44,291 bases of DNA from Bacteroidaceae bacterium (GTDB lineage: Bacteria; Bacteroidota; Bacteroidia; Bacteroidales; Bacteroidaceae), in the NCBI GenBank assembly GCA_024398495.1, contig JAKSJA010000015.1, positions 1 to 44,291 on the forward strand, in the 5' to 3' direction. Below, piece after piece: positions 73 to 43,975 of this stretch. Positions within the stretch are counted from its first letter, which is position 1. The number at the start of each line of letters is the position of its first letter. The notes below the pieces were generated by a model that did no database searches, was not told the DNA's origin, and saw nothing but the letters and a program-made list of their open reading frames with translations. The position numbers were made by a program, and so were the translations under genes.

Positions 73-264
73 ATGATTAAAAAAGTTGTAAATAATTGTA
101 AAGCTTGTTTTGACGAACTTGCGCATAAGACCTCTTGGCCTACTCGCAAAGAGCTTACAAACAGTGCAGTGCTTGTATTATCTGCTTCCCTTATCATTGC
201 ACTAATAGTGTTTGTAATGGACCAATGTTTCGGTTTTATTATGGGTATGGTTTATCCGGGCTAA
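73..264 (+). CDS. secE: Preprotein translocase subunit SecE
   Basis: SecE is the small clamp subunit of the SecYEG protein-conducting channel in the inner membrane. The 63-residue product has the short single-helix form common outside the enterobacteria. An amphipathic stretch with the conserved TSWPTRKEL-type motif (about residues 20-28) is followed by one hydrophobic transmembrane helix (about 32-55). It begins 23 bases after the tRNA and is followed 12 bases later by nusG, the near-universal secE-nusG arrangement. Confidence 0.95.
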   Translation: MIKKVVNNCKACFDELAHKTSWPTRKELTNSAVLVLSASLIIALIVFVMDQCFGFIMGMVYPG

Positions 265-276
265 AAACATTGAGAT

Positions 277-816
277 ATGGCTGATTTCAAATGGTATGTG
301 CTTCGCGCAATAACAGGTCAGGAACTCAAGGTCAAAGAATACATAGAGGCTGAGATGAAACATGACGCAGACTTTGCTGCTCATGTGAATCAGATTCTTA
401 TTCCTATGGAAAAACGTGTATCGCTGAGAAACGGTAAACGTGTGGAATCTTCTAAGACCTATCTGCCCGGTTATATGCTTGTAGAGGCCAAACTTGAGGG
501 CGAAATTGCGCATAGATTGCGCTTCATGCCTAATGTAATGGGCTTTCTCGGTGGACTGGATAATCCGTCTCCTGTAAAACAATCAGAACTGAACCGTATG
601 CTTGGTAATCAGGAAGAGGCCGAAATCAGAGGCGAAGAAGTTAACCTTCCTTTCTGTGTCGGTGAAACTGTAAAAGTAACGGATGGTCCTTTCAATGGTT
701 TCTTGGGTGTAATCGAAGAGGTGAATAACGAGAAACATAAATTGAAAGTAATGGTCAAGATCTTTGGACGTAAAACTCCATTGGAACTCGGTTTTATGCA
801 AGTTGATAAGGAATGA
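277..816 (+). CDS. nusG: Transcription termination/antitermination factor NusG
   Basis: NusG binds the clamp of RNA polymerase, modulates pausing and links transcription to Rho or the ribosome. The 179-residue protein has an N-terminal NGN domain beginning [12 protein letters not shown] and containing the LPGYMLVEA segment. A C-terminal KOW domain follows (about residues 125-179), with [14 protein letters not shown] and a final [11 protein letters not shown]. Length and order match the family. It lies between secE and rplK as part of the ribosomal/RNA polymerase operon. Confidence 0.97.
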
Positions 817-38870: not shown

Positions 38871-39239
38871 TCATTCATCCATAGAATCACTTATGTCATC
38901 CGCATCGAAGAATGTGAACACATGTCCAAAACAACCTACAGACACTGTTTTCGATTCTCCCTTGACACTTACCTCTCCAGTGCTGAATACGAAATAGTTA
39001 CGTACTCTCAATGTTGACTCCACCACTGTCGTGAGCAATTTTGAGGCAATTGTGCCACCGAGCAGTGATAGCCCAATCTCCAAATTAGAATCCCCAATAT
39101 TTTCTGAAATCTCCTTGCTCATAGACGTGTTTATTTCGTCCATGATCGCATTCTGATGAGCTTCCTTATCTGGACAAGTAACAACCGCAACAAGTGCCAC
39201 CGCCACAACAATCAGTAATAATGTTATCTTGCTATTCAT
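38871..39239 (-). CDS. DUF4359-like small exported protein
   Basis: This 122-residue protein has an N-terminal hydrophobic helix (about 5-21) followed by CPDKEAH, a motif I associate with DUF4359 proteins. The rest is mixed, with a conserved-looking VSVGCFGHVFTF segment near the end. It is either anchored or exported. No function is known. It overlaps the preceding small membrane protein gene by 4 bases. Confidence 0.65.
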   Translation of the reverse strand: MNSKITLLLIVVAVALVAVVTCPDKEAHQNAIMDEINTSMSKEISENIGDSNLEIGLSLLGGTIASKLLTTVVESTLRVRNYFVFSTGEVSVKGESKTVSVGCFGHVFTFFDADDISDSMDE

Positions 39240-39583
39240 TTTGTTTGTTGTTGTTGTTCTTCTTCTATTCCAGATTGATGTTCTAGCACAATAATAGATG
39301 CGGCTTCTGTGATAATGGCAAAAGCACGGAGCACGTACACATAAAAGAACGCAAAGAAACCTTGTAAAAAGCCGAACAATATGAGCACTATTCCTATGGG
39401 TATTAAATCTGCTGAATATTCAGAGACCCCTATACTTGTCAGCTTTAGTCCTAAAATAATAAATATAACAGCACAGATGATTATGAACCACTTGAGTATT
39501 TTTGCCCACATATTGAGCTTCCCTGACGTATTTGCAACTCCGGCAATTTTTACGATAGAGTCTGACGCGATAACTTTTCCCAT
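39236..39583 (-). CDS. Small membrane protein with two hydrophobic helices
   Basis: I do not recognise a family for this 115-residue protein. It has two strong transmembrane helices (about 30-48 and 57-85), a short polar N-terminus and a glutamine-rich tail (EEEQQQQTK). It is coupled by ATGA overlap to the DUF4359 gene, so the two probably act together at the membrane. Confidence 0.65.
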   Translation of the reverse strand: MGKVIASDSIVKIAGVANTSGKLNMWAKILKWFIIICAVIFIILGLKLTSIGVSEYSADLIPIGIVLILFGFLQGFFAFFYVYVLRAFAIITEAASIIVLEHQSGIEEEQQQQTK

Positions 39584-39654: not shown

Positions 39655-39686
39655 AAATAAGCGTACCGTTTATTGTTGGCACGCTT
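39651..39686 (-). terminator. Intrinsic terminator after the endonuclease gene
   Basis: On the minus strand AAGCGTGCC pairs with GGTACGCTT (one mismatch) around a 10-base loop, followed by ATTTTTTG. It ends the AAA+/DUF5763/channel/nuclease operon about 105 bases after the nuclease stop. Confidence 0.75.
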
Positions 39687-39792: not shown

Positions 39793-40575
39793 TTACCTCC
39801 AATCACTCAACTTATTCTGGGCTTCTATTCGATTCTCGATTTCGTTTGGTAGTTCTGCAAAGAAGTTATATCCAGTTAGTTCCTCTAATTGGTCTATGGA
39901 TAATGCGGCACTTCCCATTGTCTGACGTGAATCATCGTTTCTGTAGTAGAAACCTATGCCTTTCTCTTTTCCTTGTCGGATAGAAACAATTACCTTGAAG
40001 AACGCATCTGGAATACGAATCTTGACTTCCTCTCCAATATAGCGTGCTGCATTTTGTTTGTCATAAATTGGACCACAACAAATGTACACACATCCTTCCT
40101 GACTTGCCCATCTTCTACAGGCACTTTCCAAGTGTTCCCACCATTGTTGATTCAGTATAGGAATTTGAGGGCAGATGTTTGACATCAAAAAGCATTCGGA
40201 CATGGCGTCCGCATCCCATTTCATATCGCCAGCAGGACACATGTGCCCTCTATCAAATCCTGTTTGCTTGTAATCGTACCCTTCAGCTCTATGTAACGGC
40301 GGTACCATTGTGTCACCACGAAAATCATTCGAACGCTTGAATTGTGTGGAATACGCTTCTTCTTCCGTCAAATTCCATGCCACCCAATTCGGACAGTTAG
40401 TATCTAAATTGTAGGACAAAGTAAAACCTGTATGTTCAATAATCAAATTGTCTGATGCTGTTGTAGCCGGCAACTCAATCCTATTACGTGATTGTTTTGT
40501 TGGAACTCGTGACAATACTATTGCAGAGCCAAACGCAAGTATTAATAAAGTCAAATTACGTATTCGCCTTCCCAT
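39793..40575 (-). CDS. Exported DNA/RNA non-specific endonuclease (NUC1 family)
   Basis: This 260-residue beta-beta-alpha metal nuclease has the catalytic DRGHM motif (108-112, general base His111), the metal-binding Asn in NQQWWE (about 142) and SNICPQ. The first 22 residues form a hydrophobic signal peptide or anchor, so the enzyme should work outside the cytoplasm, in the periplasm or outside the cell. Its start lies inside the channel gene by 20 bases, indicating coupled translation. Confidence 0.9.
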   Translation of the reverse strand: MGRRIRNLTLLILAFGSAIVLSRVPTKQSRNRIELPATTASDNLIIEHTGFTLSYNLDTNCPNWVAWNLTEEEAYSTQFKRSNDFRGDTMVPPLHRAEGYDYKQTGFDRGHMCPAGDMKWDADAMSECFLMSNICPQIPILNQQWWEHLESACRRWASQEGCVYICCGPIYDKQNAARYIGEEVKIRIPDAFFKVIVSIRQGKEKGIGFYYRNDDSRQTMGSAALSIDQLEELTGYNFFAELPNEIENRIEAQNKLSDWR

Positions 40576-41302
40576 TCTTCCTTTCTTTTACTTCTTCCAT
40601 GTATCCAGCCGTAATTATTCCTGAGGGCAAAGCAATGATTGCAATTCCAACGAAAGCAGAAATCATGCTTACCACTCTGCCAATGTCGGATATCGGATAA
40701 ATATCCCCATATCCAACTGTAGTCAAGGTACAAGTTGACCAATATAGTGCATCAAAGAAATTATCAAAGAATAGTTCGCCCGTTTCTGGGTTTACCGATT
40801 GCTCAATATTGAACATGAACAATGCTGTAATGAATATGTAGAACAACGCAAAACCAACTACTGTCAGCAGTACAGAGGCTTTTTTTCGAAACACTTCAAT
40901 AACTACTTGTAGTGGCTCGTAATATTTGAACACTTTGGCAACTCGGAGTATTCGTAATAGTCTCCATATTCTCAATACTCTAAGTGAACTATTCACATAG
41001 CTAATAGCTGGAAGAATAGTTACGATGTCAATAATTGCAATTATAGTAAAAGGATACACCACGAAAGGCTTTATCCCCTTTCTCTTACTTCTAAAATCAG
41101 CTGTCGCCCAACGTAGCAGGTAATCGACAATAAACAAAAAAGTAACTACATATTCTATTGTTGTGAATATATTGTTATGACTATGAAACATTAGAGGAAT
41201 AATGCTGATAACTATTGCCACTTGCATTAACCTATCATATATCTTTGAGATGAGATTGTCATTCTCATCCAACTCTATTATCTCAAATATCTTTTTCCTC
41301 AT
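40556..41302 (-). CDS. Six-helix voltage-gated-type potassium channel
   Basis: This 248-residue ion channel has six transmembrane helices. S4 carries regularly spaced arginines (SLRVLRIWRLLRILRVAKVF, about 106-125) and the pore has the K+ selectivity filter TVGYGD (195-200). ATG at 41302 is preferred because it overlaps the DUF5763 stop as ATGA and has AGGA-like bases before it. A TTG at 41320 would add six residues. A channel between a AAA+ gene and a nuclease gene is unusual for a plain potassium uptake gene. Confidence 0.9.
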   Translation of the reverse strand: MRKKIFEIIELDENDNLISKIYDRLMQVAIVISIIPLMFHSHNNIFTTIEYVVTFLFIVDYLLRWATADFRSKRKGIKPFVVYPFTIIAIIDIVTILPAISYVNSSLRVLRIWRLLRILRVAKVFKYYEPLQVVIEVFRKKASVLLTVVGFALFYIFITALFMFNIEQSVNPETGELFFDNFFDALYWSTCTLTTVGYGDIYPISDIGRVVSMISAFVGIAIIALPSGIITAGYMEEVKERKNGKANT

Positions 41303-41712
41303 CCTCCGTGTTGCCAACAATATCCGTTACTTTTTGCGTTTCTGGTGCATCTGCTTCCCGATTTAGTTGTTGCTCGACATCTGCCACCTCCTGTTGTACT
41401 TGTGCTCTTTGCTGATGTACTTCTTGTAGTGGTTGTCGTTTGCTGGATTCCGGTCTTACTTGCATGTTGCCAACAATATTCAGAACCATCTTGCGCTTTG
41501 CGAGAACATTGTGTACCCTTAGCTGTTGTCGCTTTACATTGACCACTTGTGGAAACTACTGGCATGCCTTTGTGTGTTGCCGTTACAGTATCATCTATAC
41601 TGATAAGCATTTTAATCGCATGTCCGCACTCAGGACAAGTTATCGTGATTTGCTGTTGAGCATGAACTGCAACTGAGAGAATTAAACTGATTGCTAATAA
41701 TACCTGTTTCAT
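41299..41712 (-). CDS. Secreted DUF5763-like Cys/His-repeat protein
   Basis: This 137-residue protein has a signal peptide (ending about AVHA|QQ), a CPECGHAIKM knuckle, then two copies of a small Cys/His module: CKATTAKGTQCSRKA...YCWQH and CRATTKSGSRCTRNA...YCWQH. A Ser/Thr-rich linker separates them. The C-x7-C...C-x2-H pattern suggests metal or disulfide stabilisation outside the cytoplasm. The modules look like the DUF5763 type seen near nuclease or competence genes, but no function is established. It lies 25 bases after the AAA+ gene. Confidence 0.75.
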   Translation of the reverse strand: MKQVLLAISLILSVAVHAQQQITITCPECGHAIKMLISIDDTVTATHKGMPVVSTSGQCKATTAKGTQCSRKAQDGSEYCWQHASKTGIQQTTTTTRSTSAKSTSTTGGGRCRATTKSGSRCTRNAKSNGYCWQHGG

Positions 41713-41737
41713 AATGATGCGATTATTAAACTAATTC

Positions 41738-43975
41738 TTATTTCTTTAATGATGTCACATCCTCAATGCTAATCTCGCAAAGTATCTCACTTGTCAAATG
41801 CCCGATACTTGCCAGACGCATTGCCTGATTCTCCAAGGTCTTCTCAAAGAGATTGCGAACAAATCGTGCATTGCCGAAGTTCTTATTTTTGTTTGCCACG
41901 GTATTGGCAAGGTGAGCAGAGATAAACGCTTCTGCTTCGGCACTTAGCGTATATTTGTGACGCTTCAGATTGCGTTTGTATATCTCAAGCAATTCTTCTG
42001 CATTGTAATCTGGGAAGTCAATGTATCTGTTGAAGCGTGACTGAAGGCCAGGATTGGAATTTATGAAAGATTGCATCTCATTGCCATAACCAGCGAGAAT
42101 CACAACCAATCGCTTTCGGTCGTCTTCCATTCGTTTCAAGAGTGTGGAGATTGCCTCTGTGCCATAGTCATTGTTACCACCATTGACAAGCGAATATGCT
42201 TCATCAATGAACAAAACACCATCAATAGCAGAATCAATGATTTTGTTCGTCTTTACTGCTGTCTGACCAACGTATTCAGCCACAAGACCAGAACGGTCCG
42301 TTTCTACTAGATGTCCTTTTTTGATAATCCCAAGCTCGCTATAGATGTTGGCAAGGATTCTTGCTACTGTCGTTTTACCAGTTCCTGGATTGCCTGTAAA
42401 TACACAATGGTACGAAATGTCACTAACGGGAAGTCCCTTCTTTTCCCTCGCCTTCATTATCTTTATAAAGTTGGTAAGCTTCTCAACTTCAGCCTTCACT
42501 GACGACAGTCCAATTAGACTTTGCAACTCACTCTGGGAATCCATAACAATACCCTCCTCTGTTGCACTGTCATCTGTATTGCATATAGCCTCTTCTTTTT
42601 CTTCGTAGAAGATTTCTTCCAATTCATCTGTTGTGAGAACCAATACCTCGCGAGGTGTGGTACCTATTTGTTCGCTCACGACACCGAGTTGTTCAAGCTG
42701 TTCCATTATCCTGCCAGCTCTATTGTAACCGATGCTGAATTTCCTCTGTATCATGGACGTACTAACGGCCTGTTCTTTTACAAGGAATTTTGCCGCATCC
42801 TTCATAATGGGGTCATATCCAGACATATCTTTTTGAATGCGTCTTATATTTTTACTTTCAACCATTGTTTTCAAAGGTTTGCCGTCAGTGGTCAGGTCTT
42901 TAGCCTTCATTAGATTTTCCAAAATCTCACTTTCTCTTGCATCGATAGTATCATCTGCCTTTGCTATGGCAGAAGCATAGCGATACAGATGCACCATGTA
43001 TTGCGACATACGCTCCTTGTCAACGTTTTCGAAAACGTGTTGGAAGAAATACTGACCAGCAGGAATCGAACAACGTTCGTTCACTATCTTGACAGTGTCA
43101 TACATGTTTCTTGTGGTAGGAGCAATATTATCTCTATAATTTACTAGCTGAAAATAATCAAGTGTGAAGCCTGAATTCGCAACATTATTAGCCAACAAGA
43201 GTAAGCCCAATTCCTCGTCATCGTCAGCATTTATCTTATATCCAAGGTCTGTATAGCATCTATAGGCATCAAGCATCATTGTGAGATTGATTTTGTTGCT
43301 CAGTGGCCAAGGTGAACCATCATTGTTCGTCAATCCCATCATTCTATCCAGTTCCCTCCTTACCTTAATGCTCCTTGTTGCAGTTTTTAGAAAATTATAA
43401 AGATTCTTTGTCTCAGACTGCATTAGGTCAAAGTTTTCTTTCTTCCATGAAAGGAACAGCTTATTTGACTTGTATTGAACTGGCGTAGTTTCTTTCGCAG
43501 ATGCTTCCGCAGCAGTTTCCTCAGATGAAACACCATCTTTGCTATCTGTAGTAGAGACATTACTTTTCCCCTTCGATGAAATCAAAGCAACAATAATCCA
43601 CAATACAAATGCGATGCTCAACCCAAGCAGACATGTTGGCAAGTCAAATTTACCAGTAATACCATATATTACAAATAACGTGATCCAAGCAATACCAATA
43701 AACCAGAAACACCCGGAACTATTATATCCAATTGTATTTCCTCCTCCCGATGTGCTTTGTGTGGATATCATCGAGGAATGTCTGCTTGTACCGTCACCAA
43801 TCTTTTGTCTGTCGTATATTCCTGTGCCGGGGATGCCTGTGTTAAGGTATGTGCCATTTTTGCTAATATTTACACTCGCTCTCTTTGGACCAATCGTAGT
43901 GCTTACTCCACTTCGGCTAACATTGATAGTGACTCCCGGAGCAATCTTTATGCGTTTTCTGTATTTCCAAGCCAT
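41738..43975 (-). CDS. Multidomain DUF4236/TerB-like/FtsK-gamma/CbbX-type AAA+ protein
   Basis: The 745-residue protein reads in order as follows. A DUF4236 module (1-55; KYRKRIKIAPGVTINVSRSG). Two membrane helices (about 91-108, 112-134). A TerB-like helical region (about 180-360, with YRYASAIAKADDTIDARESEI). A winged helix like the DNA-binding gamma domain of FtsK (about 388-446; STSMIQRKFSIGYNRAGRIM). A CbbX/SpoVK AAA+ ATPase with Walker A GNPGTGKTT (528-536), Walker B VLFIDEA (587-593), the ILAGYG segment and sensor-2 GNARFVRN (701-708). All ATPase residues look intact. It heads the accessory operon. Confidence 0.88.
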   Translation of the reverse strand: MAWKYRKRIKIAPGVTINVSRSGVSTTIGPKRASVNISKNGTYLNTGIPGTGIYDRQKIGDGTSRHSSMISTQSTSGGGNTIGYNSSGCFWFIGIAWITLFVIYGITGKFDLPTCLLGLSIAFVLWIIVALISSKGKSNVSTTDSKDGVSSEETAAEASAKETTPVQYKSNKLFLSWKKENFDLMQSETKNLYNFLKTATRSIKVRRELDRMMGLTNNDGSPWPLSNKINLTMMLDAYRCYTDLGYKINADDDEELGLLLLANNVANSGFTLDYFQLVNYRDNIAPTTRNMYDTVKIVNERCSIPAGQYFFQHVFENVDKERMSQYMVHLYRYASAIAKADDTIDARESEILENLMKAKDLTTDGKPLKTMVESKNIRRIQKDMSGYDPIMKDAAKFLVKEQAVSTSMIQRKFSIGYNRAGRIMEQLEQLGVVSEQIGTTPREVLVLTTDELEEIFYEEKEEAICNTDDSATEEGIVMDSQSELQSLIGLSSVKAEVEKLTNFIKIMKAREKKGLPVSDISYHCVFTGNPGTGKTTVARILANIYSELGIIKKGHLVETDRSGLVAEYVGQTAVKTNKIIDSAIDGVLFIDEAYSLVNGGNNDYGTEAISTLLKRMEDDRKRLVVILAGYGNEMQSFINSNPGLQSRFNRYIDFPDYNAEELLEIYKRNLKRHKYTLSAEAEAFISAHLANTVANKNKNFGNARFVRNLFEKTLENQAMRLASIGHLTSEILCEISIEDVTSLKK

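Follow-up and report, generated by a model that had tools for sequence, protein, structure and literature searches.

What would a AAA+ protein, a Cys/His protein, a voltage-gated K+ channel and a nuclease do together in one operon? The question is raised by four minus-strand genes in a 44,291-nucleotide stretch (the window) from a Prevotella-group gut bacterium. Some of these parts recur together in related bacteria, and some phages have the channel family next to their control genes, which hints at a candidate antiviral device of an undescribed kind. We give a probability of about 0.35 to a modular, RexAB-like exclusion or abortive-infection-like system, in which a sensor would be paired with an ion channel and accompanied by a nuclease.

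Layout of the operon and its products

The preliminary description of this DNA had reported four closely packed genes followed by a terminator, and both points are borne out (Table 1). Open reading frame coordinates give 25 bases between the first two genes and a 20-base overlap between channel and nuclease genes. The reported 4-base overlap between gene 2 and the channel gene is obtained with the ATG at 41302. The channel frame (40556-41320) also offers a TTG at 41320, which would yield 254 residues and a 22-base overlap; the ATG is more likely the start, and an 84 % identical channel at another locus (L120) begins at the equivalent methionine. Behind the operon we found a 9 bp hairpin (−13.1 kcal/mol, z −2.1, with 6 of 200 shuffles equally good) and a T-run; a pattern scan missed it because its loop of 10 exceeds the scan maximum of 8. 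Only 316 bases separate the start of the AAA+ gene from the end of the contig, which keeps upstream genes out of view. The downstream pair P0006/P0005 (39583-38871) was considered as additional members and rejected, as neither has a homologue in 76 named channel loci. Foreign base composition was likewise dismissed, the operon having 39-41 % G+C, similar to much of the window.

Table 1. Position of the operon genes, protein domains and terminator in the window
Feature	Coordinates	Strand	Basis
Gene 1, membrane-tethered CbbX/SpoVK-class AAA+ protein, 745 aa	41738..43975	-	ORF, profile matches, motifs
Gene 1, DUF4236 domain, residues 3-56	43808..43969	-	Pfam E 6e-22; same stretch in second search
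Gene 1, FtsK-gamma winged helix, residues 387-446, recognition helix GYNRAGRIMEQ	42638..42817	-	Pfam E 1e-24
Gene 1, CbbX/SpoVK-class AAA+ core and lid, residues 482-740	41756..42532	-	Pfam, NCBIfam, PDB, motifs
Gene 2, small protein, two DUF5763 Cys/His units, export-like N-terminus, 137 aa	41299..41712	-	Pfam; export by eye
Gene 3, Kv-type K+ channel, 248 aa from ATG	40556..41302	-	Pfam Ion_trans, KCNQ PDB matches, motifs
Gene 4, DNA/RNA non-specific endonuclease (Endonuclease_NS), export-like N-terminus, 260 aa	39793..40575	-	Pfam, EndoG/NucA-type matches, DRGH
Hairpin then ATTTTTT, probable intrinsic terminator	39659..39686	-	Fold energy

Gene 1 had been called CbbX-type, and rightly so. 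It matches SpoVK (6e-92), EccA (1e-79) and CbbX (3e-71) in NCBIfam, AAA (2e-19) and AAA_lid_6 (8e-16) in Pfam, and CbbX structures 3zuh/3syk best in the PDB. Walker A/B, sensor-1 GY and arginine fingers (residues 528, 587, 626, 641) are intact, and the classical AAA core together with the GY signature, a mark of the CbbX/SpoVK/EccA clade in the available part of PMC10659427, places it there. It stays below the equivalog cut-offs of all three NCBIfam families (SpoVK 307.5 of 423 bits, EccA 268.3 of 467, CbbX 239.9 of 459), and we saw no Rubisco, sporulation or type VII setting around the gene. According to the same partial source, clade members are narrow chaperones with a single target each and have variable N-terminal domains; gene 1 resembles them in this variability and differs by its DUF4236, transmembrane, middle and FtsK-gamma regions. 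The membrane helices were read by eye. A TerB middle domain, prompted by an acidic motif, was rejected since PF05099 matches nothing in the genome even at E values as high as 10. The winged helix matches the E. coli FtsK gamma domain (2j5p, E 1.5e-12) with a near-identical recognition helix; in contrast to FtsK, gene 1 joins this domain to a CbbX-class AAA+ module, and Pfam detects no FtsK motor. Elsewhere DUF4236 precedes an FtsK-like motor, read by eye, in three proteins (L219, L223, L224) and FtsK-gamma alone in two (L220, L221).

Gene 2 matches DUF5763 over two stretches (Pfam E 1e-15), the unit being GvpO_arch_Nterm in NCBIfam (67 bits against a cut-off of 52). Gene 3 is a voltage-gated K+ channel by its TVGYGD filter and Arg-rich S4, with Ion_trans at E 6e-30 and KCNQ matches in the PDB. 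Opening such a channel need not depolarise a cell. Gene 4 carries the DRGH motif and downstream N...E of Endonuclease_NS (E 1e-51) and has EndoG/NucA-type matches. By sequence, the operon brings together a membrane-tethered AAA+ protein bearing an FtsK-type winged helix and a K+ channel with a voltage sensor; it adds a nuclease and a Cys/His protein, whose export-like N-termini were read by eye.

Phage copies of the channel and defence context

K+ channel genes are known from viral genomes, Kcv of an algal virus being one. We found the operon's channel family on 13 viral contigs. At 11 of these loci an HTH regulator and/or an integrase/recombinase gene adjoins the channel or lies one gene beyond; 10 of the 11 exceed the Pfam cut-off and 8 have both kinds of gene. 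In the annotation that comes with Dulem virus 33, a regulator/integrase likewise lies near the channel, with the integrase 1.5 kb on. Such a neighbourhood may be the spot where phages keep exclusion genes. The presence of the family in phage lysogeny modules hints at a role in conflict and is new support for it, beyond what the preliminary description had argued. None of the genes displayed at the viral channel loci encodes the AAA+ protein, the nuclease or DUF5763. Named phages seldom carry the channel: 5 of 50,697 records match, one of them over most of the channel length.

On the bacterial side, the channel of L120 lies 51 bases behind a PDC-S37 protein named by PADLOC. For the four operon proteins themselves, PADLOC 2.0.0 returned weak AAA-fold matches, all to the AAA+ protein (IetA, DolB, TRIP13, mad8; best E 1.5e-8), with none to genes 2, 3 and 4 and no strong match to a core protein of a known defence system. 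The defence-island setting that had been envisaged was not found: among ten other window proteins PADLOC named one, an RmuC protein, and Pfam shows the visible surroundings to be housekeeping genes, including rpoB and rpoC. Titles and abstract beginnings among the literature matches listed describe no such module, which does not prove its absence; the same search gave nothing of related title for DUF4236 and no paper for DUF5763.

Linkage in other genomes and alternative explanations

The linkage of AAA+ protein, channel and nuclease is well supported. The preliminary description had proposed looking for their co-occurrence in other Bacteroidales, and it proved to be far above background. Our AAA+ set was a non-random choice of 34 loci (22 long and 12 short) with strong matches and long frames; the long relatives were retrieved independently of the channel. 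Within 2.5 kb, 3 of the 22 long loci have a channel (about 0.003 expected, P 4e-9), 2 have a nuclease (P 0.001) and 4 have either. Seen from the channel, 8 of 76 named loci carry a nuclease no more than 2 kb away (about 0.1 expected, P 4e-13; inner versus outer flank P 2e-4). These P values assume uniform densities and treat related loci as independent, which they are not, and the nuclease density of 1 per 2.7 Mb is an estimate from the matches listed. AAA+ protein and channel occur together at G090, G583, G912, L129 and L181. The AAA+ protein is found with the nuclease at G904, where the two genes are separated by 12 bases in another family, and at G090, with the nuclease 2.5 kb off.

These parts do not form a fixed set. 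The exact quartet was found only in the window among the loci read, at odds with a fixed four-gene operon, and L119 has a DUF5763-channel-nuclease trio without the AAA+ gene. AAA+ homologues devoid of channel and nuclease, named earlier as evidence against the association if they were the rule, largely are so on that side (18 of 22 long and all 12 short relatives have neither gene in the fetched stretch), with 4 of the 22 long ones linked. Twelve DUF4236 contexts were fetched of the 16 besides the window and G090; the gene is visible in 11, and the genes displayed there include neither a channel nor a nuclease. On a 92-row channel tree, 7 AAA+/DUF4236 linkages require 7 changes and 10 nuclease linkages require 8. 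By this tree the linkages appear scattered instead of one inherited block; the linked channels are unclustered, 85 of 500 label shuffles being equally low, which fits repeated gain or else loss of an old arrangement.

Most channels stand by themselves: 65 of the 76 named loci are partnerless within 2.5 kb, as are all 15 further non-duplicate loci among the genes shown. The channel therefore often works alone. This bears on the main rival to exclusion, ion or envelope homeostasis, where the AAA+ protein would be a dedicated chaperone that assembles the K+ channel or resets it during osmotic or envelope stress, and the nuclease and DUF5763 protein would handle extracellular DNA under such stress. 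We regard it as possible. A solitary channel, kept at one conserved place in each of two sets of nine named loci, is what one expects of a physiological channel, and the one-target chaperones described in the accessible part of PMC10659427 agree with it; patchy occurrence, shuffled N-terminal domains and the finding of this family of channels within lysogeny modules of phages argue against it. If homeostasis is right, the chaperone-channel pair is still unexplained.

We also considered that AAA+ protein and channel are the sole unit and that the nuclease and the DUF5763 protein, a pair of their own for scavenging DNA, share the transcript by chance. G583, G912, L129 and L181, which have AAA+ protein and channel with no nuclease in the whole stretch, would agree, as would the presence of P0001-like nucleases in 249 of 301 family genomes. 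This explanation is unlikely given that the 8 nuclease-linked channels lack the AAA+ gene in their stretch, so that channel and nuclease pair independently, and that G904 joins the AAA+ protein to the nuclease alone. Interbacterial competition, with the exported nuclease as weapon and the other genes aiding release or protecting the producer, draws on the export-like N-terminus and on non-specific nucleases acting as toxins in other systems, and is very improbable for an enzyme whose spread over family genomes is more like that of a general one.

A candidate exclusion module

The preferred reading, exclusion, has precedents among phages. In the available parts of PMC6426606 and PMC6426596, a sensor plus ion channel is the authors' model for CarolAnn 43/44 and Sbash 30/31, expression of rexAB goes along with that of cI, and expression of CarolAnn 43/44 with that of the CarolAnn repressor. 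The operon would share with lambda RexAB, CarolAnn gp43/gp44 and Sbash gp30/gp31 the proposed pairing of a sensor with a membrane ion channel that it activates, and the repressor link of rexAB and CarolAnn 43/44 recalls the phage copies of its channel family beside repressor-like genes. The proteins are unrelated: as far as these sources go, those systems have 4-TM membrane partners and DUF4747-type sensors, whereas the operon has a Kv-type channel, a CbbX-class AAA+ protein and a nuclease. We found neither a RexA/DUF4747 sensor nor a 4-TM RexB-type protein, Pfam giving no DUF4747 in the four proteins. K+ channels also occur in phage PLE, Vibrio phages and an Oenococcus sicerae prophage (KQT-like); the portions available of PMC6163359 and PMC9867325 muse on a role in DNA injection, give none in exclusion and mention no AAA+ or nuclease partner.

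We hypothesize that the AAA+ protein, positioned at the inner membrane, would sense DNA as it comes in or some product of the phage, and remodel the channel, which would thereby be opened or licensed. K+ efflux would then arrest growth of the infected cell, and the exported nuclease may cleave DNA entering via the periplasm. In this scheme the AAA+ protein would control both channel and nuclease, as put forward in the preliminary description, and that interpretation as a whole is partly supported. A narrower version seems doubtful, namely a RexAB-like immune circuit assembled from Kv-channel, FtsK and CbbX parts: a membrane-anchored AAA+ chaperone would read DNA through its FtsK-gamma helix and gate the Kv channel on infection, the exported nuclease would be a second line, and temperate phages would have acquired the channel from this circuit, or donated it, as an exclusion gene expressed in lysogeny. 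In the channel- or nuclease-linked AAA+ proteins of L181, G912 and G904, Pfam detects no FtsK-gamma, and in those of G583 and L129 its helix deviates at residues that we take to read DNA; DNA sensing therefore cannot be general.

Exclusion is suggested by co-localisation above expectation, the repressor and integrase neighbours of viral copies, the PDC-S37 neighbour at L120 and the RexAB-type precedent. Against it stand the partnerless channels, an FtsK-gamma domain that is not general, L119 without the AAA+ gene, weak PADLOC matches and housekeeping surroundings. If exclusion is true, bacteria and prophages would be using voltage-gated K+ channels as immune effectors, a role unnamed in the parts of the cited literature available, and a function could be assigned to the long CbbX-class AAA+ proteins of Bacteroidales. 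The reason why Kv channels are retained by bacteria and phages would then become a question for plaque assays.

The four genes and their surroundings

The four genes named in the preliminary description are all intact and lie in the order proposed, and the motifs of the AAA+ protein, the channel and the nuclease are intact. A hairpin with a T run begins 107 bases 3' of the last operon gene. The second gene product has an export-like N-terminus and then two DUF5763 Cys/His units. The FtsK-gamma domain of the AAA+ protein matches E. coli FtsK gamma with an E value of 1.5e-12, its helix residues being GYNRAGRIMEQ compared to GYNRAARIIEQ in E. coli; Asn, Arg and Glu, the KOPS-reading residues of FtsK gamma, are all retained.

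The source assembly (1.43 Mb, 63 % complete) contributes the window as a single 44-kb contig, whose end is only 316 bases from the AAA+ gene start. The visible side is not a defence island, and the neighbours there are housekeeping by Pfam: among ten other window proteins scanned are rpoB, rpoC, chorismate synthase, GcvT and an Orn/Lys/Arg decarboxylase, and PADLOC names one of the ten, an RmuC protein (model RTasRmuC) that we take as housekeeping. Two small membrane or secreted proteins, P0006 (weak SLATT_1 match, E 0.026, under cut-off) and P0005 (DUF4359), are encoded behind the operon with a 4-base overlap; no homologue of either was found at the 76 channel loci described below.

Features of the AAA+ protein and coordinates of neighbouring genes
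Feature	Position	Strand	Remark
AAA+ protein			745 aa
DUF4236	residues 3-56		AAA+ protein
Two hydrophobic stretches	residues about 88-135		AAA+ protein; read by eye
Middle region	residues about 176-385		AAA+ protein; no family name
FtsK-gamma winged helix	residues 387-446		AAA+ protein
CbbX/SpoVK-class AAA+ core	residues 482-740		AAA+ protein
P0006, P0005	window 38871-39583	-	behind operon
171-174 aa protein	L231:4703-5227		
171-174 aa protein	L232:5044-5565		
171-174 aa protein	L233:4601-5116		
DUF3990 protein	L032:8190-8717	-	genome G090
Genes behind AAA+ and nuclease	L232:8252-10695	+	genome G904

Linkage of channel, AAA+ and nuclease genes

We scanned named genomes with the channel alignment and took the best 80 of 169 relatives, 76 of them with a called channel gene; the closest within these 80 are in Prevotellaceae/Bacteroidales assemblies. 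A nuclease, DUF5763 or AAA+/DUF4236 homologue lies within 2.5 kb of the channel at 11 loci (L119, L127, L129, L134, L142, L145, L157, L159, L176, L181 and L188), and the other 65 of the 76 have no partner homologue within that distance. Locus L119 keeps DUF5763, channel (86 % identical) and nuclease (E 2e-154) with overlaps of 22 and 20 bases as in the window, but the 1.1 kb ahead of this trio contains no AAA+ match. L129 (Prevotella sp. khp7) combines a HIRAN gene and a DUF4236-FtsK-gamma-AAA+ gene with the channel and with a protein that has a DUF5763 tail (under the Pfam cut-off). The channel precedes an AAA+ gene by 3 bases in L181, and a DUF4236 protein without AAA+ stands ahead of the channel in L142, whose stretch starts at that protein, and in L176. 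In L120 the channel, 84 % identical to the window's, comes after the gene of a 1776-aa DUF4011/AAA_11-12/MTES_1575 protein, PDC-S37 according to PADLOC. In each of two nine-locus sets the channel occupies a conserved position with none of these partners, and partners are likewise absent among the genes shown at 15 of 15 further channel loci (19 less 4 duplicates).

The AAA+ protein was searched against 201 family, 398 genus and 286 order genomes, in partly overlapping sets. We fetched 34 loci, drawn from the top-scoring hits and the long frames, and checked every called gene: 22 long forms (451-1037 aa, with G387 at 450 aa and the FtsK-gamma form of G012 at 359 aa; that of G375 on a 5.3-kb contig) and 12 short forms (333-369 aa). 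The long form lies 15 bases from a channel in G090, 2 bases from one in G912 and 0.5 kb from a divergent one in G583; a nuclease lies 12 bases away in G904 and 2.5 kb away in G090. Such a partner is present at 4 of the 22 and absent at 18. No other channel or nuclease occurs in the 34 stretches, the short forms having neither (0/12 each). Five of the 22 long forms carry DUF4236, three with a partner (G090, G912, G904) and two without (G292, G835:C9).

Because P0001-like nucleases are so widespread (249 of 301 family genomes), chance neighbours need discounting. At one nuclease per 2.7 Mb, our estimate, chance alone predicts 0.1 nucleases no more than 2 kb from the 76 channels; 8 were observed, and one more in the following 6.5 kb. 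DUF4236 is present in 18 of 301 genomes and DUF5763 in 5 of 201 (3 above cut-off); channels at least as close as E 3e-52 occupy 20 places besides the window in the 301 genomes. All four AAA+/DUF4236 matches at named channel loci are within 40 bases of the channel. The earlier interpretation is partly supported: co-localisation of AAA+, channel and nuclease is borne out, a fixed four-gene operon is not.

The 14 linked channels are spread over a 92-channel tree, on which they require 12 changes (85 of 500 shuffles are equally low); the 7 AAA+/DUF4236 linkages take 7 changes and the 10 nuclease linkages 8. Independent association arising several times would fit a functional link; alternatively, an old arrangement was lost many times. 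At the level of sequence, the repeated pairing and the architecture of the parts are established.

Possible role and the channel in phages

A defence role of the module is plausible, and ion or envelope homeostasis is nearly as likely. The module may act as RexAB does, without being a member of the RexAB family. CarolAnn 43/44 and Sbash 30/31 protect against phages, with the ion-channel step as their authors' model (PMC6426606, PMC6426596), and the characterised CbbX/SpoVK-clade proteins are chaperones, each with a dedicated target (PMC10659427). Here the target of the AAA+ protein would be the channel, the trigger incoming DNA or a phage product and the outcome K+ loss, with DNA in the periplasm as the likely substrate of the nuclease. 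DNA sensing is the weakest step, because among the AAA+ proteins with a linked partner those of L181, G912 and G904 have no FtsK-gamma by Pfam and those of G583 and L129 have an altered helix.

The channel alignment also matches 13 loci on viral contigs at 41-48 % identity (L239/L248 and L243/L244 being near-copies). At 11 of the 13 the channel is adjacent to, or one gene away from, an HTH regulator, an integrase or serine recombinase, or both kinds of gene; 10 of these are above the Pfam cut-off. Eight have both, L238 and L244 HTH only and L249 integrase only, the HTH of L243 and L244 scoring slightly under the cut-off. By reading, L246 and L247 have neither beside the channel. No AAA+, nuclease or DUF5763 gene is among those displayed at the 13 loci. 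The channel gene is rare among named phage records, since only 5 of 50,697 match, Dulem virus 33 alone over most of the length; its own annotation gives an HTH, an ion transport protein and an integrase 1.5 kb further. As a parallel to the viral channels beside an HTH regulator, lambda rexAB and CarolAnn 43/44 are coexpressed with their repressors (PMC6426606). K+ channels were noticed earlier in an Oenococcus sicerae prophage (PMC9867325) and in Lactobacillus phage PLE (PMC6163359), the passages concerned giving no exclusion role. Independently of the operon, the Kv-type channel genes of phage lysogeny modules are candidates for a role in lysogenic conversion or exclusion.

Further neighbours of the AAA+ and DUF4236 genes

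A 171-174 aa protein with no Pfam family above cut-off is encoded ahead of the channel or DUF4236-AAA+ gene in G912, G904 and G835:C9, from other families of the same order, and is possibly a further component of the module. Between the G090 nuclease and channel lies a DUF3990 gene (E 3e-42), possibly ADP-ribosyltransferase-like, with a weak ART-PolyVal match under cut-off. The AAA+ and nuclease genes of G904 are followed by a gene for a protein that has His-Ser repeats and a peptidoglycan-binding domain, then by a small gene and a radical SAM gene; this group resembles a His-Xaa-Ser cluster. DUF4236 also stands ahead of an FtsK-like motor (assigned by eye) or FtsK-gamma alone in L219, L220, L221, L223 and L224; its neighbour in L223 and L224 is another FtsK-like gene, read by eye. 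Short CbbX-like AAA+ genes of the genus and family recurrently pair with a small membrane protein, VanZ-like from reading of its sequence (L041-L044, L085, L088).
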